Of a stretch of 64,000 nt of DNA, positions 9,781-27,728 are shown piece after piece. A model generated the notes under the pieces. It saw nothing but the letters and a program-made list of their open reading frames with translations. It did not search any database and had not been told where the DNA came from. Source of the DNA: Pedobacter gandavensis (GTDB lineage: Bacteria > Bacteroidota > Bacteroidia > Sphingobacteriales > Sphingobacteriaceae); the NCBI RefSeq assembly GCF_014172405.1, contig NZ_WNXC01000003.1, positions 248,001 through 312,000 of the forward strand, in the 5' to 3' direction. The translations under genes and the position numbers were made by a program. Position 1 is the first letter of the stretch. The number at the start of each line of letters is the position of its first letter.

Positions 9781-9821
9781 AAAAAAATCCCTGACTCTAG
9801 CCAGAGCTAAAACCAGGGATT
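9781..9821 (-). terminator. Rho-independent terminator after the oxidoreductase gene
   Basis: AATCCCTG (9786-9793) pairs with CAGGGATT (9814-9821). Read on the minus strand the stem is followed by seven or more T residues. Confidence 0.75.
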
Positions 9822-9842
9822 AACAAAAAGAGTTATCTCAAC

Positions 9843-10493
9843 TTAATAAGCTGCCGTAAATCTTTGTTTCAAATATTTAGGTTGCTCTAATTCATCAACG
9901 ATTGCTACGGCCAAATCCTGTACAGAAAGTGAGCTTCTTCCAGCTTCATCAAATACTGGGTTTTCGTTACCTACCCGATAATGGCCTGTACGGCCAGTGG
10001 TAATCCCTGGGTGCATTTCAATGGCTGGACTAAAGAAGGTCCAGTCCAATTCCGTTTCATTTTTAATGGTATTCAGGTAATCTCTTGCTGCTGTTGCGCC
10101 GGCTTTATAATCTGCAGGAAAATCCGGTCCGTCTACCAGTTGCTGGCCGTTAATAAATAAGCTCCCTGCCCCACCGATCACAATTAAACGGGGTACACCG
10201 GCATCTTTTACTGCTTTCTGAATGGCTTCTGATCCAGCAATAAAATCATCATAAAGATTTGGGTTGGTCCAGCCCGCATTAAAAGCGCTGATCACTGCGT
10301 CAGATCCTTTGATTGCCTCCGCTAATTCAGTCGTATTTAATACATCCACTTCTTTCACTGTCAGCAGGGCATTGCTTTCTTTTACATGAGCCGCTGTCCT
10401 GACAATTCCTGTTACCTGGTGACCACGATTTAACAGTTCCGTTAACAAATGTGAGCCTACAAAACCGCTTGCTCCAATTAATGATACTTTCAT
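9843..10493 (-). CDS. NAD(P)H-binding atypical SDR oxidoreductase
   Basis: 216 aa with a Rossmann fold of the NmrA/atypical short-chain dehydrogenase type. The nucleotide-binding motif is MKVSLIGASGFVGSHLLTELLNRGHQVTGIVR, followed by VDVLNTTELAEAIKGSDAVISAFNAG and RLIVIGGAGSLFI. No YxxxK catalytic pair is obvious, as is usual for this subgroup. The gene next to it encodes an Rrf2 regulator, and both carry the same TGTAA-N9-TTACA site upstream. The Bacillus subtilis ywnA/ywnB pair has the same gene content, so a role in a redox or electrophile stress response is a fair inference. The substrate is unknown. Confidence 0.85.
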   Translation of the reverse strand: MKVSLIGASGFVGSHLLTELLNRGHQVTGIVRTAAHVKESNALLTVKEVDVLNTTELAEAIKGSDAVISAFNAGWTNPNLYDDFIAGSEAIQKAVKDAGVPRLIVIGGAGSLFINGQQLVDGPDFPADYKAGATAARDYLNTIKNETELDWTFFSPAIEMHPGITTGRTGHYRVGNENPVFDEAGRSSLSVQDLAVAIVDELEQPKYLKQRFTAAY

Positions 10494-10539
10494 GTTTTTC
10501 TATTTTATTTGATATATAATGTTATTTCTTTTTTAATAT

Positions 10540-10558
10540 TGTAATGTTATTTGTTACA
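10540..10558. promoter_or_regulatory. Rrf2-type operator before the oxidoreductase gene
   Basis: TGTAA-N9-TTACA. It matches 15 of 19 positions of the site upstream of the Rrf2 gene (10989-11007) and lies 47 nt before the oxidoreductase ATG. Confidence 0.55.
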
Positions 10559-10575
10559 GTTATGGTCAAAAAAAA

Positions 10576-10986
10576 TCAAATGAACTGTTTGCTGAAGTCA
10601 GCCAACGTTTTCTTAGCCAATTCCTGAATTAAAACCTGTTCTGTACTATCATATAAAGCATTCAAGTGATGGTTTATTTGTTTACCTACCGGGCAATGTG
10701 GATTAGGATCATTTTTAGAAGTCCCTAACAAGTTATTTTGCCTAACGGCAGTATAAACCTGATCTAAGGTAATGCTATCTGCGGATTTTGACAAGAAACT
10801 TCCGCCATTTTTACCTTCTTTACTTTCTACAAAACCTTGATTTCTAAGGTTAATTAATTCCTTTCTAACCAGAACAGGGTTGATATTGATGCTTCCCGCG
10901 ATATAATCCGACGACAACAACTCCCCCTTTGCTTTTTCCAGCAAAGTCAGGATGTGTAAAGAAATGGCGAATCTTGCGTTGTTCAT
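10576..10986 (-). CDS. Rrf2-family transcriptional regulator
   Basis: 136 aa from the ATG at 10984-10986; the frame extends further upstream but those codons run through the operator and have no family similarity. The N-terminal winged helix (MNNARFAISLHILTLLEK ... SININPVLVRKELINLRNQGFVESKEGKNGG) is followed by the dimerisation helix. There is a single cysteine, in HCPVG, so the three-cysteine Fe-S ligand set of IscR/NsrR is absent; a one-cysteine thiol switch as in YwnA-like members is more likely. A palindrome covers its own promoter, which suggests autorepression and control of the oxidoreductase gene. Confidence 0.88.
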   Translation of the reverse strand: MNNARFAISLHILTLLEKAKGELLSSDYIAGSININPVLVRKELINLRNQGFVESKEGKNGGSFLSKSADSITLDQVYTAVRQNNLLGTSKNDPNPHCPVGKQINHHLNALYDSTEQVLIQELAKKTLADFSKQFI

Positions 10987-15388: not shown

Positions 15389-15396
15389 TAATTTTG
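15389..15396 (+). promoter_or_regulatory. -7 element of the Ada-like gene
   Basis: TAATTTTG matches TAnnTTTG, 18 nt before the ATG at 15415. Confidence 0.4.
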
Positions 15397-15414
15397 GGGT
15401 ATAAATTTCAAACC

Positions 15415-16260
15415 ATGGAAACATCAAGTCAAATCGATTACCAGAGAATTGAAAAGGCCATTGACTATTTAAAGACTAATTTTAAGCTACAGCCTTCCTT
15501 AGAAGAAATCGCTGATCATATCCATTTAAGTCCTTTCCACTTTCAGCGAATGTTTAGCGAATGGGCAGGTGTAAGTCCGAAACAATTCTTACAATACCTG
15601 AGCATAGAATATGCGAAGGAAATCTTAAAAAAACAAAACGGCAACTTAGCGGAGGCAGCCTATGAGACCGGTTTATCGGGAACGAGCAGACTGCACGATC
15701 TTTTCATCAAAATTGAAGGGATGACACCCGGAGAATATAAAAATGGTGGTCAGCAATTAGAGATTAATTATAGCTATGCAGAAAGCCCTTTTGGGCCAAT
15801 ATTGGTCGCATCTACCGCTAAAGGAATCTGCTACATGGCCTTTTCGGATGATCCGGATCAGGCATTCCTGGAATTACAACAGCTTTTCCCCAATGCCAGC
15901 TACCAACAGCTACTGGATCAGATTCAACAAAATGCGCTTTATATTTTTAATACAGACTGGAACAGGCTATCTGAAGTAAAGCTACATCTAAAAGGAACGG
16001 ATTTCCAGATCAAGGTATGGGAAACCTTATTAAAGGTACCTACAGGAAATCTGGCTTCCTACGCTGACATTGCAAATGCGATTGCACATCCAAAGGCCAA
16101 CCGTGCAGTGGGAACCGCAGTTGGCCACAACCCGATAGCATTTTTGATTCCTTGTCATAGGGTGATCAAATCTACAGGGGAATTGGGGCAATACCATTGG
16201 GGGATTGCTAGAAAAACGGCTATGATCGGCTGGGAAGCGGCGAGAAGAGAGACTAAGTAA
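15415..16260 (+). CDS. Ada-like AraC regulator fused to O6-alkylguanine-DNA methyltransferase
   Basis: 281 aa. Residues 8-110 form an AraC-type double helix-turn-helix (IADHIHLSPFHFQRMFSEWAGVSPKQFL ... GMTPGEYKNGG). Residues 118-280 form a methyltransferase of the Ogt/Ada type with the active-site PCHRV, Cys247, within IAFLIPCHRVIKSTGELGQYHWG. It removes O6-methyl groups from guanine by suicide transfer to Cys247. The N-terminal zinc domain of E. coli Ada, whose Cys38 repairs phosphotriesters and switches Ada into an activator, is absent, so any sensing must work differently. It converges with an AlkA-like gene separated by one base. The ATG at 15415 was chosen over an upstream start because it fits the AraC domain. 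Confidence 0.92.
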   Translation: METSSQIDYQRIEKAIDYLKTNFKLQPSLEEIADHIHLSPFHFQRMFSEWAGVSPKQFLQYLSIEYAKEILKKQNGNLAEAAYETGLSGTSRLHDLFIKIEGMTPGEYKNGGQQLEINYSYAESPFGPILVASTAKGICYMAFSDDPDQAFLELQQLFPNASYQQLLDQIQQNALYIFNTDWNRLSEVKLHLKGTDFQIKVWETLLKVPTGNLASYADIANAIAHPKANRAVGTAVGHNPIAFLIPCHRVIKSTGELGQYHWGIARKTAMIGWEAARRETK

Positions 16261-16261
16261 C

Positions 16262-17209
16262 CTATACCCGTTTAGAAAGTGTTCGCCAAAGGTAAAACAC
16301 CAGGTAACTTTCCCATCCTTCATAATCAGTAAAAAAAGCCTCGATTCCGGCAACATCCTTTTTATCCTTGATGATGTCCAAATTGATCAAGGCATTCAGG
16401 AGCCCGGCATCGCCATGAGGAATACAGGACCGTTCTTTCAAACTCTTCATTAAGGCATAGTTAGCGGTCCAAACCCCTACTCCTTTTATACTGATTAATG
16501 CTTTTTGACGGGCAGAAAGATCTGGCATCAAGCGTAATCCTTCTTTACTGAGGCGCTGATCAGCAAAAGCAGCTGCAATCTGCAACACATAATTGGCCTT
16601 ACTTCTGGAGAACTGCATGGCCTGTAAATCTGCTGTATCTGCCTTAGCCAGGACTGCAGGCTCTGGGAATATTAAATAGCGATTATCTTGGAAATCCATT
16701 TGCGATCCATATCGTTCCACCAGTTTTCTTTTTAGCTTATAAGCAAAGGTTAAATTGATCTGTTGTCCGATAATTGCCCAGCAGATGGCTTCAAACAAAT
16801 CTGGAATTCCGATCAGGCGAAGGCCAAAATAATCCGCTTTCATAAAAGATAATCGGGGATCTTGGATGATCCGAGCATAAAAAGGATTCAAATCCAGTTG
16901 CAGATCAAACCAGTCCGCTATATACTGCTTCAATTCTCTTTCTTCTTCGAGTGATAAAGCCCTGTTCACAGATACTTTTAAGCATTGCCCCTCTTGAATC
17001 AAATTTGACTCCCCAGCCTCCTCAACTACAGCATTTCCTCCTTTTTCAATTTGAACCACAGCGGGGCCTTCCTTTAACCGAATCGCTCTTTTTACCTTGC
17101 TGCGATCCACTTGATACAAGCAATCGTCAAAACCCCGGTCTAAAAACCAAAGGCATTCTCCGAAATTAAAATCATCGGGAACAGGAAGAAGGAAACACAC
17201 CGGCAGCAT
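16262..17209 (-). CDS. alkA: DNA-3-methyladenine glycosylase II (AlkA-like)
   Basis: 315 aa base-excision enzyme that removes 3-methyladenine and other alkylated purines. An N-terminal beta domain (about 1-105) precedes the helix-hairpin-helix region: FEAICWAIIGQQINLTFAYKLKRKL, then LISIKGVGVWTANYALM (238-254) and the catalytic Asp267 in CIPHGDAGL. Those features define the HhH-GPD superfamily, and the beta domain marks the AlkA branch. It is encoded opposite the Ada-like gene with one base between the stops, leaving no room for a separate terminator. Its -7 element overlaps an inverted repeat just upstream of the start, consistent with repression or Ada control. Confidence 0.93.
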   Translation of the reverse strand: MLPVCFLLPVPDDFNFGECLWFLDRGFDDCLYQVDRSKVKRAIRLKEGPAVVQIEKGGNAVVEEAGESNLIQEGQCLKVSVNRALSLEEERELKQYIADWFDLQLDLNPFYARIIQDPRLSFMKADYFGLRLIGIPDLFEAICWAIIGQQINLTFAYKLKRKLVERYGSQMDFQDNRYLIFPEPAVLAKADTADLQAMQFSRSKANYVLQIAAAFADQRLSKEGLRLMPDLSARQKALISIKGVGVWTANYALMKSLKERSCIPHGDAGLLNALINLDIIKDKKDVAGIEAFFTDYEGWESYLVFYLWRTLSKRV

Positions 17210-17354: not shown

Positions 17355-19259
17355 ATGTCTTCAAAATTCTTATTTCTGTATAAAGCGATTTTCCTGATTA
17401 CTGTTCTTTCCTTTTCGGTCAAAAATTTGAAGGCTCAGGAGGTCGTAGAAATAAACGATAAGATTGACCAGCATATCTTTTCTTTTAAACAGATTGAGCT
17501 GCTTTCGGACACTTCCGGAAAGCTCAGCTTTGATCAGATCCGTAGCAAAGTCATCTCTGAACAGTTTAAACCCAGTAAAACAAGTACCCCTCAAACCACT
17601 AAACTCAATTCCATTTACTGGTTCAGGATCAAGATTAAAAATAACAGCAAGGCAGAAAAATATTTCCTATTAGAATTTTTCGACCAGACACTTGACCATG
17701 TGACAGCTTATGTCCCGCAGAAAGACGGCAGCTATAAAGCATTAGAATTTGGCGACAAATTTCCTTTCCGCAACCGGGAATTGCAACATAAAAACTTCGA
17801 GCTCTACCTGTCCAATGACAATGATGCTGTACAAACCTATTATTTCAAGATCCAATCCTCACAGATTGGTGATGCCATTATCGTACTGCGCTCCGTTGAC
17901 TGGTTTATCTCTTATGCCCTGGATGAGTACTTTTACTTTGGTATTTTCTATGGAATGATCCTCGTGTTCAGTTTTTACAACCTGATCATGTTCATTGCCA
18001 TGCGCCAAAAGCAATACTTATACTACGTGCTATACAACCTGAGTGTAGGCTTCTTTGAGATGAGCACCGATGGCATAGCCTACCAATATTTATGGCCTAA
18101 CCAACCGGGATGGAACCAAACTGCCTACGCCGTAGCCTTATATGCCGTCAGTATTTTCGCGCTACTATTTACCCGAGAACTGCTATTTGTAAAATCCAAA
18201 GCACCAAAATTAAACCGCCTCATTATAGGGGTCATTATCCTAAGAACCCTCTGGTTTTTATACTGCTTACTGTTCAATCAAAACCTGTTCAGTTATAAAT
18301 TTATTGATGCCATCCCATTGTTGGTGGCTTTCTTTACGGGCATATACATCTACAGACAGGGTTACCTTCCTGCTCGATTCTTTGTACTGGGTTACAGTTT
18401 CTTGTTTTTAGGCTTCTTGCTCAAGTTCTTAATCATGCTCCACTTCTCCTTTTTAAACTTCGGAGCAATCAGTTATTACAGCCTCAGCTTCTGCTTTATC
18501 CTGGAGATGGTATTCCTCTCTTTTGCCATTGGTGATAAGGTGAGTATCCTGAGAAAGAAAAAAGACATTGTGCACCGGCAGATGATCCGTCAGATGGCGG
18601 AGAACGTAAAGCTTAAAGACACCTTAAATCAGGAACTAGAAGAAAAAGTAGAAGAGCGTACCAGAGAGGTTTACCATAAATCCCTGATCATTGAGGCTAA
18701 GAACGCGGAATTATCGGATGCAAATGATCGGTTAAAACAGCAGGCGGAAGAAATTTCGAGGATGAATACCTTATTGGAGCAAGACAATCAGGAGCTCCAA
18801 ACCAATGTAGAAAAGGTAACGAGAGACAGAGTCATGTCTACAGATGTAGATTTTGAGGAATTCAGTAAAATCTATCCAGATAAAGAAAGTTGTAATCTAT
18901 TCCTATCCGACTTGAAATGGAAAAATGGCTACCATTGTAGAAAATGTAAGAACGACCATTTCTATACCGGACATATTGCCTATAGCAGAAGATGTAGCAA
19001 ATGTGGCTATGAAGAATCCGTGACCAGTTTCACTATTTTCCACAATACACGCATCCCGATTATCAAAGCTTTTTATATGGTCTTCCTGGTTTATTCTTCG
19101 AAAGGAAAGATCTCTTCCCACAAGCTATCAGAGCTATTGGGCATCCGACAAAGTACCTGCTGGACTTATGGATCTGGCATTAAACAACGGATGGACGAAC
19201 GAAAATCACAACTCAAAAAAGCCAGTAAAAACGACTGGAGTCAGTTGGTTTTAGACTAA
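17355..19259 (+). CDS. 7TM-DISM receptor fused to a transposase-type zinc-ribbon/HTH domain
   Basis: 634 aa from the ATG at 17355, which begins the signal peptide (about 1-28, ending LKAQ). Residues about 35-180 form a 7TMR-DISM extracellular domain, and about 192-394 form seven membrane helices (FGIFYGMILVFSFYNLIMFI is typical). A long coiled coil (about 398-490, NQELEEKVEERTREV) is like the linker of DISM histidine kinases. Instead of a kinase, residues about 495-615 resemble the N-terminal part of IS1595-type transposases: a zinc ribbon with Cys528, Cys531, Cys547, Cys550 (CRKCKN ... RRCSKCGY), SVTSFTIFHNTRIPI, and an HTH-like SSHKLSELLGIRQSTCW. No DDE nuclease domain, no terminal repeats. 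The likely job is membrane-held DNA binding controlling the adjacent glucan operon; this is inference. Confidence 0.85.
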   Translation: MSSKFLFLYKAIFLITVLSFSVKNLKAQEVVEINDKIDQHIFSFKQIELLSDTSGKLSFDQIRSKVISEQFKPSKTSTPQTTKLNSIYWFRIKIKNNSKAEKYFLLEFFDQTLDHVTAYVPQKDGSYKALEFGDKFPFRNRELQHKNFELYLSNDNDAVQTYYFKIQSSQIGDAIIVLRSVDWFISYALDEYFYFGIFYGMILVFSFYNLIMFIAMRQKQYLYYVLYNLSVGFFEMSTDGIAYQYLWPNQPGWNQTAYAVALYAVSIFALLFTRELLFVKSKAPKLNRLIIGVIILRTLWFLYCLLFNQNLFSYKFIDAIPLLVAFFTGIYIYRQGYLPARFFVLGYSFLFLGFLLKFLIMLHFSFLNFGAISYYSLSFCFILEMVFLSFAIGDKVSILRKKKDIVHRQMIRQMAENVKLKDTLNQELEEKVEERTREVYHKSLIIEAKNAELSDANDRLKQQAEEISRMNTLLEQDNQELQTNVEKVTRDRVMSTDVDFEEFSKIYPDKESCNLFLSDLKWKNGYHCRKCKNDHFYTGHIAYSRRCSKCGYEESVTSFTIFHNTRIPIIKAFYMVFLVYSSKGKISSHKLSELLGIRQSTCWTYGSGIKQRMDERKSQLKKASKNDWSQLVLD

Positions 19260-19340: not shown

Positions 19341-19362
19341 AGGGTACTCAAGCGTATCAGAC
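19341..19362 (+). repeat. 22-bp direct repeat, copy 1, upstream of susC
   Basis: The core AGGGTACTnAAGCGTATCA followed by nAC is repeated at 19433-19454 with 20 of 22 bases equal and a 92-bp offset. The short segment between contains nested dyads (CCAGG/CCTGG at 19373-19388, CCCTG/CAGGG at 19383-19412). Confidence 0.8.
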
Positions 19363-19432
19363 CGGGAAAAAGCCAGGACTGACCCTGGTTCCCTATGCAC
19401 TGTATATCAGGGATTAAGCCCATTTATACCTT

Positions 19433-19454
19433 AGGGTACTGAAGCGTATCAAAC
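19433..19454 (+). repeat. 22-bp direct repeat, copy 2, upstream of susC
   Basis: Second copy, differing from the first at two positions. It lies about 80 nt upstream of a weak -7 element TAACTTTA (19534-19541) and 119 nt before the susC ATG. No -33 TTTG is present at the normal distance, so the promoter may need an activator bound here. Confidence 0.8.
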
Positions 19455-19573
19455 TGAACACAACAATCTAATTATCAGTAGTTTAGGTAAAATAAAACAT
19501 TCCAAACACTAGGAATTAACATAAAATCAACCTTAACTTTATCACATCAAATTCATTAAACAAAGCAAAAATT

Positions 19574-22483
19574 ATGAGAAAAAAGTTTACTCTTTTTATC
19601 CTTAGCTTACTCTGTAGCATCTCTGTGAGTATGGCGCAGGAGCTTAACGTTAAGGGAGAGGTGAAAGACGAAAATGGTCTGCCACTTCCAGGTGTTTCTG
19701 TTAAGATCAAAGGAAGTACCAAGGGTGCAATGACTGCTGGAAATGGCAAGTACACACTGACTGCTCCAGGCAATGCCACTTTAGTTTTTTCCTTCATTGG
19801 CTATAAAACTATTGAACAGGCGATAAACAATAAAACTACTGTTAACGTCAACTTAACCGAAGACAATAATGAACTGAATGAAGTAGTCGTTATCGGTTAC
19901 GGTACCACTACAAAAAAAGACCTGACTACAGCGGTGACGACCATATCTTCTAAAGATTTGAAAAATCAGCCGATCACCAATCCTTTACAAGCGGTACAAG
20001 GTAGAGCAGCAGGTGTACAAGTAACATCAGAATCTGGTAAACCAGGTGCAGAGATTGCGATCAGCATTCGTGGAAATACTTCCATTACCGCATCTAACAG
20101 TCCACTGTATGTCATTGACGGAGTAACTTCAAGAAGTGCTGCTTTCTTAAACCCTAATGATATCGAGTCCCTAACCATTTTAAAGGACGCTTCAGCAGCA
20201 GCGATTTACGGATCAAGCGGTGCGAATGGTGTCGTTTTAATCACCACTAAAAAAGGGGTTTCCGGTCAGGTAAAAGTTGAATTCAATGCTTTTACAGGAA
20301 TTTCAAACTTCTGGCGCAAGCAAGATGTATTGTCAGCGGATCAATACATTGATCTAATGAAAGAATTGGGTTATACCTCATTTGGCGACGGTAGCAATAC
20401 CGATTGGCAGAAAGAAACTTTCGGCACAGGGACGCAGAACCAATATCAGGTATCCCTATCTGGTGGTGGCAAAGGTGGAAACTTTTACCTGTCTACCGGA
20501 TATCAACGCGACAAAGGAATTGTAGCTCCAGCAGAACTGGACAGATACACCGTTAACTTTAACGGTTCACAAGCTGCCACTTCCTGGTTAAAATTCACAA
20601 CGACTGCAGCTTTAACGGCAAGAAACTCTATTGATGTGAGTGACAATGCAGGTGTGGCACGTGGAGGTACCATTTTATCGGCCTTAACTACGCCTTCAAC
20701 GATTGGTATTTACAACCCTAATGGCAGTTATACTACGATTCCAAACTCTGGTGGATGGGACAACCCTATTGGTCAGGCTTTCGGTCCTAAAAACAAAACT
20801 AAAAACCTACGTTTTATCGGATCATTCGGTGGAGAAATCAAGTTTACTAAAGATTTAATCTTCAAATCTACCATCAGTACCAATATCAACAAAAACGACT
20901 ATAACTACGATCTTGATGCATTCAAGACAACTTACGGTCGCCAAGAAGGTGGTATCTATAGAAACAACATCACCAATGACAATGTATGGTTGAATGAAAA
21001 CATTTTGACTTACACCAAGAACGTTGGTAAAAATGCATTTTCAGCAACCGGTGGTTATACCCTACAATCTTCAGATTATAAACTGAATGAGTATGAAGAA
21101 AACAGATTCTACAAGCCACAAACAGATCAGAAAAATGATAAACCAGTTGTGGTTCCTAAAGTACCACAAAGAGCACAATGGTCAAAACAGTCTTACTTAA
21201 CCAGAGTGACTTATGCTTACGACAGCAAATATTTGTTCAGTGCAAACTTTAGAGCCGATGGTTCTTCCCGTTTCAGTGATGAACAACGTTTTGGTTATTT
21301 CCCTTCTGCTTCCGCAGGATGGAGAATCTCTGGAGAGAACTTTTTGAAAGACAGCAAAACTATCAATGATTTAAAAATCAGAGGTAGCTGGGGTAAAGTT
21401 GGTAACGACGAAGGAATTGGTGATTATGCCTGGAGAAAACTTTATCAGGAAAATGCACAAGGTGATTATAACCTAACCAACTTAAAAAATACTGGCTTAT
21501 CCTGGGAAACTACTACCCAGAGCAATATTGGTTTAGATTTAACCCTATTCAACAACAGAATAACTTTCACTGCTGATGCTTACCTGAAAAAAACGAACGA
21601 TCTATTGATCAAAGTACAATTGCCTCCAACTTCAGGATTTGCTGAACAAGCTTATAATGTAGGTTCGATGGAAAACAAAGGGATGGAATTCACGCTATCC
21701 ACTAAAAACATCGAAAGAGAGAAATTCAGCTGGTCTACAGACATGAACATCTCCTTCAATAGAAACAAAGTAACCAGCTTAGGTGCTTCTACCCCATCTC
21801 TTGATTTCGGTGGTATTTACTCCCGTACTTCAGCGGTACGCGTAGTAGAAGGCAAACCACTGGGTAGCTTTTATGGCTTCCAATATACCGGTGTAGATCC
21901 AACTACAGGTCTGGCTACCTATGCAGATCTAGATGGCAACAACAAGATTGACAATAACGACAGAACCTTTATCGGCTCTGCACAACCTGATTTCATCTAT
22001 GGAATGACCAATAACTTCCGTTATGGCAATTTCGGATTAAACATCTTCTTCCAGGGTGTTCAGGGTAACCAAATGTTCAATGCTTCGAGAATTGATTTAG
22101 AAGGTCTTTATGACTCAAAAAACCAAAGTGCAGCAGTATTAAACCGTTGGACGCCACAAAACACCAATACAGATATCCCAAGAGCAGTAAAAGGAAATAC
22201 CGACAATACCCGTACTTCCAGCAGATTTGTAGAGAATGCTTCTTACCTACGTTTAAAAACAGCGACCCTTTCTTACAACTTCGGAGAAGCTTTCTTAGGC
22301 CGTATGAAAATGAGCAAGCTGACTGTATTTGCAACTGGTTACAACATTCTAACCTTCACAAAATACAAAGGTTTAGATCCTGAAGTGAGCCAATATGGCG
22401 CAAACGGCCCTCAAATGGGTGTGGATTACGGTACCTACCCACAAAGCAGAAGCTTCCTATTAGGTGTAAACGTTGGATTTTAA
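19574..22483 (+). CDS. SusC/RagA-type TonB-linked outer-membrane transporter
   Basis: 969 aa glycan importer. The signal peptide (MRKKFTLFILSLLCSISVSMAQ) is followed by a CarboxypepD-regulatory-like domain (about 23-100, VKGEVKDENGLPLPGVSVKIKGS) and the TonB box/plug region (NELNEVVVIGYGTTTKKDLTTAV, SIRGNTSITASNSPLYVIDGV, ILKDASAAAIYGSSGANGVVLI). The remainder is a large barrel ending SFLLGVNVGF. The start lies at the first codon of the signal peptide. It forms the usual pedal-bin complex with the SusD protein encoded 12 nt downstream. Neighbouring GH3 and GH30 genes point to beta-glucan oligosaccharides as cargo. Confidence 0.95.
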   Translation: MRKKFTLFILSLLCSISVSMAQELNVKGEVKDENGLPLPGVSVKIKGSTKGAMTAGNGKYTLTAPGNATLVFSFIGYKTIEQAINNKTTVNVNLTEDNNELNEVVVIGYGTTTKKDLTTAVTTISSKDLKNQPITNPLQAVQGRAAGVQVTSESGKPGAEIAISIRGNTSITASNSPLYVIDGVTSRSAAFLNPNDIESLTILKDASAAAIYGSSGANGVVLITTKKGVSGQVKVEFNAFTGISNFWRKQDVLSADQYIDLMKELGYTSFGDGSNTDWQKETFGTGTQNQYQVSLSGGGKGGNFYLSTGYQRDKGIVAPAELDRYTVNFNGSQAATSWLKFTTTAALTARNSIDVSDNAGVARGGTILSALTTPSTIGIYNPNGSYTTIPNSGGWDNPIGQAFGPKNKTKNLRFIGSFGGEIKFTKDLIFKSTISTNINKNDYNYDLDAFKTTYGRQEGGIYRNNITNDNVWLNENILTYTKNVGKNAFSATGGYTLQSSDYKLNEYEENRFYKPQTDQKNDKPVVVPKVPQRAQWSKQSYLTRVTYAYDSKYLFSANFRADGSSRFSDEQRFGYFPSASAGWRISGENFLKDSKTINDLKIRGSWGKVGNDEGIGDYAWRKLYQENAQGDYNLTNLKNTGLSWETTTQSNIGLDLTLFNNRITFTADAYLKKTNDLLIKVQLPPTSGFAEQAYNVGSMENKGMEFTLSTKNIEREKFSWSTDMNISFNRNKVTSLGASTPSLDFGGIYSRTSAVRVVEGKPLGSFYGFQYTGVDPTTGLATYADLDGNNKIDNNDRTFIGSAQPDFIYGMTNNFRYGNFGLNIFFQGVQGNQMFNASRIDLEGLYDSKNQSAAVLNRWTPQNTNTDIPRAVKGNTDNTRTSSRFVENASYLRLKTATLSYNFGEAFLGRMKMSKLTVFATGYNILTFTKYKGLDPEVSQYGANGPQMGVDYGTYPQSRSFLLGVNVGF

Positions 22484-22495
22484 TAACAAAGAGAC

Positions 22496-23923
22496 ATGAG
22501 AATTAAATTATATTCAATTTTAGCAGCCGCAGCCCTTACCATGGGTTTACAAACCAGTTGCAAAAAAGATTTTTTAGATAAGAACCCATTTAATCAAGTA
22601 ACGCCAGAAGAAGCTTTTGTTGACCTTAAAGGAGCAGAAAAGTTACTTTCAGGTGCCTATGGAGGCATGTACAACAATACCCACATCTGGGATTTCATGT
22701 TGAATGGTGATGTGATCGCAGACAACTCCTATGCTGGTGGTGATAACCCTGCAATGTTCCAGATGGATGAATTTCGCGTAAACTCTACCAATGAAGTATT
22801 GGAAAGAGATTGGTCGGAGCTATATTCACAAATCAAAAATGCAAATGAGGTACTAGAAAATGTACCTAACATCCAAGATCCTGAATTGGATAAAGGCGAC
22901 AGAAGAAACCAGATTCTTGGCGAAGCGGCAGGGATCAGAGCCTACTTATATCTATACCTGGTACGCTTATGGGGTCCGGTACCAATCGTACTGAAATCTC
23001 CAGGAAAGCTGGAAGACATGCAAGTTCCAAGATCAAGTGTTGATGCTGTTTATGAGCAGATCATTAAAGACCTGGAATATGCACTGGCAAACACCAGAAC
23101 CACGGCTCCTAACAAAGGTATATTCACTAAAGGAGTAGCTAATGCTTTATTGGCTAAAGTATATGCGACTAAACCAAATCCAGATTGGAATAAAGTAAAC
23201 CAATATGCGGATGCGGTAATCGGAGGTGGATACTCACTTTTCGGTAGCTATGATGGCTTATTTTCTGGTAGCAACAAAAACAACTCAGAATCAATCTGGG
23301 AAATGCAGTTTGATGGTGGCAATGGCGCAAACAAACGCTCCAACTGGATGCCAAGTGTGATTGTAGGTGCAGGATGGAAAAAATTCTGTACGCCAACAAA
23401 TGATCTTGCAGCAGCATTTGATGCAGAAGGTGACCAGATCCGTAAAAATTCAAGCATCAAATTCCTAAATGTGGCAACTGAGGGCTGGAGCGATACTTTC
23501 TGGCCAAAAACACGGTATCCATACATCAACAAATATAGAAACGACGACCAGACCAATATCTATATCCTTCGTTTGGCGGATATCATTTTATTGAAAGCAG
23601 AAGCTTTAAATGAAATTAGTGCTGGAGGATGGGCCCAGGCAAAACCATTGGTAGAACGCATCAGAAACAGGGTAAACCTTGGGGCTACTCCTGCAGCGGA
23701 TCAGCCTGCAATGCGTTTAGCGATCGAAAAAGAACGTCGTCTGGAGCTTGCTTTTGAGGGGCATCGCTGGTATGACCTGGTACGTACTAACCGTGCGATC
23801 CCAGTAATGAACGCACAGAAAGACGGAAATGGCGCTTCATTAAACTACAACCTAAGCGCTGATAAGATCTTATTGCCAATGTCGCAGAAAGAGATCGATA
23901 GAAATACAAGTATCAACAAATAG
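22496..23923 (+). CDS. SusD/RagB-type surface glycan-binding lipoprotein
   Basis: 475 aa lid protein of the SusC/D importer. The lipobox is LQTSC with lipidated Cys22 (CKKDFLDKNPFNQVTPEEAF, the classical SusD start). TPR helices follow (NEVLENVPNIQD, GEAAGIRAYLYLYLVRLWGPVPI), then the RagB C-terminal signature (ILRLADIILLKAEALNEI ... IEKERRLELAFEGHRWYDLVRTNRA). It is translated 12 nt after susC. A stable hairpin after the stop probably sets the ratio of susCD to the glycosidase messages. It should bind the glucan at the cell surface; the exact ligand is inferred from the hydrolases. Confidence 0.95.
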   Translation: MRIKLYSILAAAALTMGLQTSCKKDFLDKNPFNQVTPEEAFVDLKGAEKLLSGAYGGMYNNTHIWDFMLNGDVIADNSYAGGDNPAMFQMDEFRVNSTNEVLERDWSELYSQIKNANEVLENVPNIQDPELDKGDRRNQILGEAAGIRAYLYLYLVRLWGPVPIVLKSPGKLEDMQVPRSSVDAVYEQIIKDLEYALANTRTTAPNKGIFTKGVANALLAKVYATKPNPDWNKVNQYADAVIGGGYSLFGSYDGLFSGSNKNNSESIWEMQFDGGNGANKRSNWMPSVIVGAGWKKFCTPTNDLAAAFDAEGDQIRKNSSIKFLNVATEGWSDTFWPKTRYPYINKYRNDDQTNIYILRLADIILLKAEALNEISAGGWAQAKPLVERIRNRVNLGATPAADQPAMRLAIEKERRLELAFEGHRWYDLVRTNRAIPVMNAQKDGNGASLNYNLSADKILLPMSQKEIDRNTSINK

Positions 23924-23975: not shown

Positions 23976-26276
23976 ATGACACTAAAAAGAACGCTATCCT
24001 TATTGCTGCTTTCCAGCACTTTCGGTACCGCTATCGCTCAGAATAATAACCAGGCAAAAGCAGAAGCATTGTTAAAAAAGATGACGATTGAAGAGAAAGT
24101 CGGACAAATGGCGCAAATCACACTTGACGTAATTGGTAAAGGAAAAGGCCGTTATGAGAGTGATGAACCATTCGGTTTAGACGAAAAAGAACTACAAAGA
24201 GTATTGGTAAAATACCATGTTGGTTCTGTACTAAACACCTCAAACAACAGAGCAAGAACCCCACAGGTTTGGTACAACATCATCAGCAAAATTCAGAATG
24301 TGGCGATGAAACAAACACCAAATAAAATCCCTGTGATTTATGGTGTGGATGAAATCCATGGTGCTACTTATACCGTAGGTGCAACGATGTTCCCACAGCA
24401 AATCGGTCAGGCTGCAACATTTAACCGTTCATTGGTGAAAAACGGCGCTTCGATCACTGCTTATGAAACCCGCGCAAGCTCTATTCCATGGAACTTTGCC
24501 CCACTATTGGATATCGGTTCAGATCCTCGTTTCCCTCGTCAGTGGGAGAGTTTTGGTGAAGATCCATACCTGATCAAAGAACTTGGTGTAGCCGCAGTAA
24601 AAGGTTACGAAGGTGAAGATGGTAAAGTGTCACATCCGGAAAAAGTAGCTTCTTCTATCAAGCACTTCCTGGGTTACCAGGTATCGGTTTCAGGAAAAGA
24701 CAGAACGCCAGCCTTCATTTCTGATCAAGCTTTAAGAGAGTATCATTTACCTCCTTTTAAAGCGGCAATTGATGCAGGTGCGAAAACCATTATGATCAAC
24801 TCTGGTATCATTAACGGTATCCCTGTACATGCCAATTACCATATCCTAACGGAATTATTGAAAGAAGAATTAAACTTCAAAGGTTTGGTAGTTACCGATT
24901 GGGGAGATATTGAGAACCTATACAAGAGAGATCGCATTGCAAAAGACGACAAAGAAGCCATCATGTTGGCCATCAATGCCGGTATTGATATGTCGATGAT
25001 CGCTTATAACTATGAGACTTTTTGCGATAACCTACTTGCTTTAGTGAAAGAAGGAAAAGTAAAAGAATCTCGTATTGATGATGCAGTAAGAAGAATTTTA
25101 TGGGTGAAATATGAATTGAACCTTTTTGAGAAACCGACAACAAATCCTAAAGACTACCCAAAATTTGGGAGCAAGGAATTTGAACATGCTGCTTATCAAA
25201 CCGCAGCAGAGTCGATCACCTTGTTAAAAAACACGGATCAAATTCTTCCATTGGCAAAAGGCACAAAAATTCTGGTTACAGGTCCAAATGCGAATTCTAT
25301 GAGAACCCTAAACGGTGCATGGACTTACTCTTGGCAAGGAGAAAAAGTAGAGGAATTTGCGGCTAAATACAATACGATCCTGGAAGCTTTACAAAATAAA
25401 GCAGGAAAAGATCAAGTAACCTACTTCCCTGGTGTGAGCTATAAAATGGATGGTAAGTATTATGATGACTATGCCGACAAAATGGACGAAACCATTGCTG
25501 CTGCAAAAGATGCAGACGTGATCGTACTTTGTCTTGGTGAGAACTCGTATACAGAATCTCCAGGAAATATGAACGATTTATACCTCTCGGATTTGCAAAC
25601 GGAATTGGCGCAAAAATTAGCGGCAACCGGTAAAAAAATAATCCTGGTATTAAACGAGGGTCGCCCACGTGTGATCAGCAAGTTTGAAAAGAAAATGACT
25701 GCAGTGGTACAAACGTACCTTCCAGGTAACTTCGGTGGTGATGCCCTTGCTGATGTGTTATATGGCGTGGTAAATCCTTCAGGAAAACTACCTTATACTT
25801 ACCCTCAGTACCCGAATGCCCTGTTTACTTATTACCATAAACCATCAGAAAATAAAGGCACTACAGAAGGTGTGTACAATTATGATGCGGACTACAACCC
25901 TCAATATGTATTCGGTGCAGGTTTAAGTTACACAACTTTCAAATATGATCAGCTAAAACTGAGCAGCAACACCCTGAAAAAAGGAGAAACGCTGACTGTT
26001 ACTGTCAACGTCAGTAACACTGGTAAAGTAGCTGGTAAAGAAAGTGTATTGCTATTTACTTCAGATTTATATGCTACCTTAATTACTCCGGATGTGAAAC
26101 GTTTGAGAGGATTTGAGAAAATTGACTTGAAATCTGGTGAGACAAAAACGGTAACGTTTAAAATCCAGCCGGAAGACCTTGCTTTCATTAATACGGAAAA
26201 CAAAGCGATCACTGAAGAAGGAGAATTTACCCTTCAGATTGCAGATCAAAAAATCAACTTTAACTACATCCCTTAG
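23976..26276 (+). CDS. GH3 beta-glucosidase
   Basis: 766 aa exo-acting glycosidase with a signal peptide (MTLKRTLSLLLLSSTFGTAIAQ). The N-terminal GH3 barrel holds KMTIEEKVGQMAQI, PVIYGVDEIHGA, SIKHFLGYQ and the nucleophile Asp308 in LVVTDWGDI. The alpha/beta sandwich domain follows (about 400-620: ESITLLKNTDQILPL, GENSYTESPG), then a fibronectin-like C-terminal domain (about 660-765). It probably releases glucose from beta-linked gluco-oligosaccharides in the periplasm. It is part of the SusC/D operon; the GH30 gene follows after 21 nt. GH3 plus GH30 is the combination in the beta-1,6-glucan locus of Bacteroides thetaiotaomicron. Confidence 0.93.
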   Translation: MTLKRTLSLLLLSSTFGTAIAQNNNQAKAEALLKKMTIEEKVGQMAQITLDVIGKGKGRYESDEPFGLDEKELQRVLVKYHVGSVLNTSNNRARTPQVWYNIISKIQNVAMKQTPNKIPVIYGVDEIHGATYTVGATMFPQQIGQAATFNRSLVKNGASITAYETRASSIPWNFAPLLDIGSDPRFPRQWESFGEDPYLIKELGVAAVKGYEGEDGKVSHPEKVASSIKHFLGYQVSVSGKDRTPAFISDQALREYHLPPFKAAIDAGAKTIMINSGIINGIPVHANYHILTELLKEELNFKGLVVTDWGDIENLYKRDRIAKDDKEAIMLAINAGIDMSMIAYNYETFCDNLLALVKEGKVKESRIDDAVRRILWVKYELNLFEKPTTNPKDYPKFGSKEFEHAAYQTAAESITLLKNTDQILPLAKGTKILVTGPNANSMRTLNGAWTYSWQGEKVEEFAAKYNTILEALQNKAGKDQVTYFPGVSYKMDGKYYDDYADKMDETIAAAKDADVIVLCLGENSYTESPGNMNDLYLSDLQTELAQKLAATGKKIILVLNEGRPRVISKFEKKMTAVVQTYLPGNFGGDALADVLYGVVNPSGKLPYTYPQYPNALFTYYHKPSENKGTTEGVYNYDADYNPQYVFGAGLSYTTFKYDQLKLSSNTLKKGETLTVTVNVSNTGKVAGKESVLLFTSDLYATLITPDVKRLRGFEKIDLKSGETKTVTFKIQPEDLAFINTENKAITEEGEFTLQIADQKINFNYIP

Positions 26277-26297: not shown

Positions 26298-27728
26298 ATG
26301 AGATTACTAAATATAAGCGCGATAGCAGCCCTTGCCTTACTAGGTTCATGTGCAAGTCAGAAAGAAGTACCGGTAAGCACAGGCGTATCGGCATGGATTA
26401 CCAATGGTGATCGCTCTGCCCTATTGCAAAAGCAAAATACACCTTTACATTTTTCTACCGCAATGAACAACAATATCAATATTGTGGTGGATGACCAGAC
26501 AAGTTTTCAAACGATGGATGGTTTTGGCTATACTTTAACTGGTGGTAGTGCGAGTCTGATGAACGGACTTCCAACAGCAGAAAAAAAGGCGATGTTAAAA
26601 GAGATTTTCTCTACCGCCGGAAATGGCATTGGCATTAGCTACCTGCGTTTAAGTGTTGGTGCCTCAGATTTAAGTGCAGAAACCTTTACTTATAATGAAA
26701 TGCCTGCCGGACAAACGGATCCAGAACTAAAAAACTTCTCAATTGAAAAAGAGATGAAAGACTTGGTACCGATGTTAAAAGAAATCATTGCCATCAATCC
26801 AAAGATCAAGATCATGGGTTCTCCATGGACTGCTCCAACCTGGATGAAAGACAATCAGGCGTACCGTGGTGGTAGCTTAAAGCCAGAATATTATCAGGCA
26901 TATGCCAAATATTTTGTCAAATATATTGAGGCTATGAAAGCACAAGGTATCGTAATTGACGCAGTAACGATTCAAAATGAGCCCCTGCATCCTGGAAACA
27001 ATCCCAGTATGTATATGAAGCCTGAGGATCAGGCAAACTTCATCAAGACTGCTTTAGGCCCGGTATTTAAAGCTGCGGGCATCAAAACCAAGATCATTAT
27101 TTATGACCATAATGCTGACCGTCCGGATTACCCGATTACTATTTTGAATGATCCGGAAGCCAATCCATATATTGATGGTTCTGCATTCCATTTGTATGGC
27201 GGACAAATTTCTGCGTTATCAAAAGTACATGAAGCCTTCCCTAATAAAAACCTGTATTTTACAGAGCAATGGGTAGGTGGCCCAGGTAATTTCGCGGAGG
27301 ACTTAAAATGGCATGTGTCTACCTTAATGACTGGCGCGCCAAGAAATTGGAGTAAAACAGTATTGGAATGGAACCTGGCAGCAGATCCACAGTACCGTCC
27401 ATTTACACCCGATGGTGGCTGTACCAGCTGTTTAGGCGCAATTACGATCGATGGTAAAACATGGAGTAAGAACATCGCTTACTATTCAATCGGCCATACC
27501 TCGAAATTTGTAAGCCCGGGTTCTGTGCGCATCGCTTCAAATCAACATGATAAAATCCAGAATGTGGCTTATAAAACACCTGAAGGAAAGTTAGTATTGG
27601 TGACGATGAACAACAGTCCTGAAGCACAAACATTCAACATTAAATACAATGGTCAGGTGGTAACGACTACACTTGCCGCCGGATCTGCTGGAACTTATAC
27701 CTGGAACAGCAAAACAAGAGCTAAATAA
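26298..27728 (+). CDS. GH30 glucosylhydrolase, probable endo-beta-1,6-glucanase lipoprotein
   Basis: 476 aa. A lipobox (ALLGSCASQ) suggests anchoring, probably at the cell surface. The GH30 pattern is complete: QTMDGFGYTLTGGSASLMN, GIGISYLRLSVGASDLS, SPWTAPTWMK, acid/base Glu228 in TIQNEP, FHLYGG, and nucleophile Glu323 in LYFTEQWVG. The C-terminal beta-sandwich closes the protein (VAYKTPEGKLVLVTMNNS). Glucosylceramidase-like GH30 proteins in Bacteroidota glycan loci commonly cut beta-1,6-glucan; the subfamily is inferred. As last gene of the operon it would make the oligosaccharides taken up by SusC/D and finished by GH3. Terminator at 27772. Confidence 0.93.
   Translation: MRLLNISAIAALALLGSCASQKEVPVSTGVSAWITNGDRSALLQKQNTPLHFSTAMNNNINIVVDDQTSFQTMDGFGYTLTGGSASLMNGLPTAEKKAMLKEIFSTAGNGIGISYLRLSVGASDLSAETFTYNEMPAGQTDPELKNFSIEKEMKDLVPMLKEIIAINPKIKIMGSPWTAPTWMKDNQAYRGGSLKPEYYQAYAKYFVKYIEAMKAQGIVIDAVTIQNEPLHPGNNPSMYMKPEDQANFIKTALGPVFKAAGIKTKIIIYDHNADRPDYPITILNDPEANPYIDGSAFHLYGGQISALSKVHEAFPNKNLYFTEQWVGGPGNFAEDLKWHVSTLMTGAPRNWSKTVLEWNLAADPQYRPFTPDGGCTSCLGAITIDGKTWSKNIAYYSIGHTSKFVSPGSVRIASNQHDKIQNVAYKTPEGKLVLVTMNNSPEAQTFNIKYNGQVVTTTLAAGSAGTYTWNSKTRAK

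Follow-up and report, generated by a model that had tools for sequence, protein, structure and literature searches.

Seven-helix receptors of the 7TMR-DISM type, such as NicD, RetS and SagS, share with the receptor described here a DISMED2 sensor, a 7TM core and a cytoplasmic output that follows a helical linker. The DISMED2 domain of NicD has been reported as carbohydrate-binding (PMC8544897). The output is where the present receptor departs from them, being a zinc ribbon and helix-turn-helix (HTH) of the IS1595 transposase type and not a GGDEF, kinase or LuxR domain. ChiS, which controls chitin use, is likewise a membrane sensor with a C-terminal DNA-binding domain, although its DNA-binding fold is a different one, it is a protein of Proteobacteria and it has kinase and receiver domains itself. 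A DNA-binding output on a seven-helix DISM receptor is not new in principle, as the ChiS-type DNA-binding domain is also found on 7TMR-DISM (PMC8092284) and the genome studied here encodes a 7TM-DISM protein whose C-terminus is of the LuxR type (L187, G000:C11, ~706-708 kb), with a susC gene starting ~2 kb further on.

Regulators of the SusR type and hybrid two-component regulators resemble the receptor in that their genes lie before susC and a membrane sensor controls the locus, but their sensors are made of Reg_prop and Y_Y_Y domains and their outputs are unrelated, the hybrids having kinase and receiver domains as well; no Reg_prop, Y_Y_Y, kinase or receiver domain was found in the receptor with Pfam. 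The fourth point of comparison is the IS1595-family transposases, which have the zinc ribbon and HTH at their N-terminus and within which the receptor domains branch, whereas the receptor has no DDE domain, is a fusion and appears not to be part of a mobile element. There is good documentation in eukaryotes of transposases being captured as transcription factors but, to our knowledge, hardly any in bacteria.

The analysis reported here suggests that part of a transposase was captured as the output of a seven-helix receptor, and that the fusion spread across the Bacteroidota as an apparent family of glycan-locus regulators. It is very probable that the receptor regulates the adjoining glycan operon as a one-component protein embedded in the membrane, acting through its transposase-derived zinc ribbon and HTH at a pair of sites upstream of susC. 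This predicted operator would allow loci under such a receptor to be read from sequence, even where they lie elsewhere in the genome. A description of a transposase-type receptor output, or of this operator, was not found in the open literature, subscription papers being mostly outside the search, which suggests, within the literature covered, a previously undescribed route from bacterial sensor to gene.

Architecture of the receptor

The receptor gene lies in a window of 64,000 nucleotides, the whole stretch of Pedobacter gandavensis DNA that was analysed (Table 1). Its product runs from a signal peptide through a DISMED2 sensor, the 7TM-DISM core and a coiled coil (residues ~396-495) to a zinc ribbon and HTH (~499-622). 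The DISM sensor and seven helices proposed in an earlier, sequence-only reading both score above curated Pfam cut-offs, with 7TMR-DISMED2 at residues 45-171 (108 bits, 4.6e-31, cut-off 22) and 7TMR-DISM_7TM at residues 191-395 (149.8 bits, 1.3e-43, curated cut-off 29). The same reading had placed four cysteines at 528, 531, 547 and 550, positions that are exact in the translation, and had taken them for a transposase-type zinc ribbon; the Zn_ribbon_IS1595 profile (PF12760) does match significantly, at 26.5 bits against a gathering cut-off of 25.4 with the full-length protein and at 29.5 bits (7.4e-7) when the C-terminus is searched alone.

The C-terminus alone also matches the first 57 of the 215 positions of the NCBIfam IS1595 transposase model (2e-5) and the chain stops after the HTH, without a DDE catalytic domain, just as had been claimed of an IS1595 N-terminal region lacking its DDE part. 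It is because of this absence that the match falls below the full-length cut-off of that model. The structure predicted with AlphaFold2 agrees, with a beta-sandwich sensor, seven helices and a coiled coil continuous with TM7, then a zinc-ribbon region and a three-helix HTH. The modelled sensor resembles the periplasmic domain of RetS (3jyb, E 5.9e-6) and, more weakly, carbohydrate-binding modules and beta-sandwich parts of glycosidases. A Foldseek comparison of the C-terminal model with the PDB gave no significant match, and a PDB sequence search gave weak matches only, mostly to coiled coils.

Table 1. Features of the receptor locus, in window positions
Feature	Position	Strand	Details
Receptor gene	17355..19259	+	ATG at 17355, stop codon ends at 19259; 634 aa
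Zn_ribbon_IS1595 coding stretch (aa 509-552)	18879..19010	+	Pfam; genome search G000:C15:266879-267010
Stretch coding IS1595 transposase model positions 1-57, including HTH (aa 564-619)	19044..19211	+	NCBIfam, AlphaFold2
A1, putative operator site GGGTACTCAAGCGTATCA	19342..19359	+	Conserved in 53/53 Pedobacter orthologous gaps
B1, conserved element CTGTATATCAGGGATTAAG	19400..19418	+	Gap alignment
A2, putative operator site GGGTACTGAAGCGTATCA	19434..19451	+	92 bp after A1
B2, conserved element CTAATTATCAGTAGTTTAGG	19468..19487	+	Fixed distance from A2
Probable susC promoter, CTAG/CTTG block then TTAACTTTA	19507..19543	+	Conserved block in gap alignments
susC, probable first target gene	19574..22483	+	TIGR04056, 875 bits
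susD	22496..23923	+	PF07980, PF14322
GH3 beta-glucosidase	23976..26276	+	Profile matches
GH30, related to endo-1,6-beta-glucanase BT3312	26298..27728	+	411 bits, model cut-off 700 bits

The receptor family and its neighbours

Once duplicates were removed there were 107 distinct receptor loci, falling into 33 similarity groups and found in Pedobacter, Mucilaginibacter, Chitinophaga, Persicobacter, Flammeovirga and other genera. The gene is present in 22 of 36 Pedobacter genomes and, judged by reading-frame length, in 16 of the 395 genomes of an even sample of the class; among 84,980 species genomes scanned, related sequence turned up at 347 places, the best 79 loci being from Bacteroidota without exception. 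The receptor gene is also found on plasmids of Persicobacter, Flammeovirga and Aureibacter, either within a glycan or sugar locus or adjoining one. Across 38 aligned full-length receptors (that of the window and 37 homologues, 54-83% identical) the four cysteines never vary, nor does much of the HTH, and the genome of the window has a second receptor copy, 52% identical, that is again followed by susC and susD. Given this invariance and the setting of the second copy, the architecture is not a matter of chance.

Two of the loci, L128 and L136, have two receptor-family genes each, those of L136 probably in tandem. L064 encodes on its minus strand (9785-10750) a shortened relative of 321 aa that lacks both sensor and 7TM core, next to a divergent susC that has a site pair; the relative apparently consists of one membrane helix, a coiled coil and the zinc ribbon and HTH.

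Within the window the receptor, susC, susD, GH3 and GH30 genes follow one another on the same strand. It is apparent that the link to susC extends to the homologues, as had been supposed, with susC the next co-directional gene in 80 of the 107 loci. Since many of these loci are orthologues the receptors were also counted by similarity group, susC being next in 19 of the 33 groups and not in the other 14. As the genome of the window has 56 susC genes, or ~1% of an estimated 4,700 or so genes, chance falls far short of explaining the linkage. The exceptions include a Mucilaginibacter locus in which GH30 is next (L146), a genome with two GH30 genes (G017) and Flammeovirga with a ribokinase and sugar transporter.

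The operon of the window resembles bt3309-bt3314 of Bacteroides thetaiotaomicron, a locus that 1,6-beta-glucan induces and that has a regulator of the SusR type among its genes (PMC5481569). The locus of the window is probably one for beta-1,6-glucan, although its GH30 scores below the cut-off of the endo-1,6-beta-glucanase model. In several other Pedobacter loci with a similar GH30 the gene preceding susC is regulator-like and encodes ~970 aa, and the paired site is absent; the two of these genes that were scanned encode Reg_prop and Y_Y_Y domains. Upstream of the receptor are a gene for an AraC-type HTH fused to an O6-methylguanine methyltransferase (Ada-like, 15394-16260, plus strand) and one for an AlkA/OGG-type glycosylase (16262-17209, minus strand), an ordinary alkylation-repair pair.

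The paired site and the proposed mechanism

The gap between the receptor gene and susC contains two copies, on the same strand, of a 17-bp site with the core AAGCGTATCA. The 53 aligned Pedobacter gaps share GGTAYTNAAGCGTATCA twice on one strand, the copies in the window carrying an extra leading G. Both copies are present in all 53 gaps, compared with 0.019 sites per gap in shuffles. Downstream of them is a conserved block that we take to be a Bacteroidota-type promoter. Of the 27 susC gaps in other clades, 26 gave a pair at a spacing of 76-93 bp when searched with a matrix built from the 53 Pedobacter gaps alone, four of the 26 having a weak second copy, so that overall 79 of 80 receptor-susC gaps have a pair at this spacing; one locus that adjoins susC (L066) has no pair recognisable by the matrix. 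Flank and spacing go with the clade of the receptor, with GGTA at 90-93 bp, GTTT and related flanks at 76-79 bp, and GTG and related flanks at 86-89 bp. The distance from B2 to A2 is constant in 65 of the 69 operators with a recognisable B2.

The single site has just two perfect matches in the 5.6-Mb genome, both in the window, and the exact pair pattern is found in this genome at two places, each following one of the two receptor genes. Across 59 genomes the exact pattern occurs 31 times, with 22 of these within ~3.5 kb of a receptor gene by coordinate comparison. Four of the other nine were read in detail and are receptor-free and not linked to insertion sequences, in genomes that do bear a receptor: the pair lies ~195-200 bp before susC in L226 and L228 and before a GH3 gene in L227, whilst the pair of L229 has neither susC nor GH3 after it. 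A pair with a slightly looser core lies 205 bp upstream of a lone GH30 gene in G016 (L231). Where susC is displaced by two genes (L047) the pair lies 200 bp before that susC, and where susC is divergent (L064) the pair is on the susC strand; L047 and L230 have an additional pair before the receptor gene itself. The pairs near displaced or divergent susC genes and remote glycan genes imply that the sites are markers of target promoters rather than simply of the region 3' to the receptor gene. The pair was not found at several of the receptor loci without susC next, for example L071-L074, L129 and L155. Within outlying families variants of the pair are seen in L158, L162, L164 and L167, with no clear pair in L066, L071-L074, L155, L166, L168 and L170.

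The proposal that the receptor regulates the susC/D operon is strengthened by these operator-like pairs beside receptors and likely targets, which suggest that it may turn on the glucan-use genes directly. The periplasmic DISMED2 domain would sense an oligosaccharide freed from the substrate of the locus, its ligand being probably a sugar and here probably beta-1,6-gluco-oligosaccharides, and the 7TM core and coiled coil would relay the signal inwards. The cytoplasmic zinc ribbon and HTH, presumably while still tethered to the membrane, would then bind the two sites just upstream of the susC promoter and so raise transcription of susC-susD-GH3-GH30. Activation is preferred to repression because the sites are upstream of the probable promoter and because of the behaviour of such loci.

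The same regulator could use the same sites if cleavage near the coiled coil freed a soluble zinc-ribbon/HTH factor, and residues 463-498, between the coiled coil and the DNA-binding domain, are indeed weakly predicted by AlphaFold2 (pLDDT under 50). This is nevertheless unlikely, as the coiled coil and linker are conserved in sequence among receptors, as for a rigid signal path, and no protease gene was seen adjoining the receptor. Less likely again is that another regulator binds the paired sites and that the zinc ribbon and HTH contact that protein or RNA polymerase and not DNA. Zinc ribbons can bind proteins, but the presence, flank and spacing of the pair go with the receptor and its clade, three of the four receptor-free pairs read in receptor-bearing genomes are upstream of glycan genes, the HTH is retained and highly conserved, and the neighbourhood comparison found no second regulator gene conserved beside the receptor. 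A chance or decaying fusion without function, for which it can be said that the full-length zinc-ribbon score barely passes its cut-off, is rejected as extremely improbable given the same architecture across many genera, the invariant cysteines, the one-clade origin and the conserved neighbourhood and sites.

Origin of the DNA-binding module

If the receptor does bind the pair directly, as preferred here, it would do so with a module taken from a transposon, and the domestication supposed in the sequence-only reading finds support in a tree of 41 receptor DNA-binding domains and 24 IS1595 transposases. The receptor domains form one clade (100/97) that is nested within the transposases and adjoins a Bacteroidota IS1595 group, which fits a single capture from an IS1595 transposase with later loss of the catalytic domain. 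The direction of capture is taken from the midpoint root, placed between the receptors' side and more distant transposases, together with the wider spread of IS1595 elements. Neighbours on both sides of the receptor gene are conserved in orthologues, which argues against the gene being a mobile unit.

It is possible, though somewhat doubtful, that the captured domain kept its recognition of transposon ends, in which case the operator would be transposon-end-like and both output and operator would come from one mobile element. The pattern GCGTATYR-N21-TATYAG occurs at 26 distinct places in the 3.03 Mb searched, 25 of them in receptor operators, whilst the 26th precedes, by ~60 bp, the start codon of a transposase gene from the IS1595 group that is sister to the receptor clade; the DDE residues of this transposase appear intact. 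Since the cases are few and this pattern was noticed after the fact, the idea stays a lead. The right end of a Persicobacter IS1595 element, GGTACCTAAGTGCATAA, resembles the single site with a single-test p of 0.001 that is weak after correction for the ends tried. The terminal repeats of Bacteroidota IS1595 elements beside L026, L027, L177 and L179 gave no convincing operator-site score, and no further copies of the L169-type element, by which its ends could be defined, were found among 149 genomes.

In a separate genome (G377; L171, L189-L196) nine diverged IS1595-like genes retain the zinc ribbon and HTH and have lost the first two catalytic Asp residues (VEVDE to VEIMT or similar; TD to TT or TN), apparently a second, separate domestication, in this case of whole transposases.
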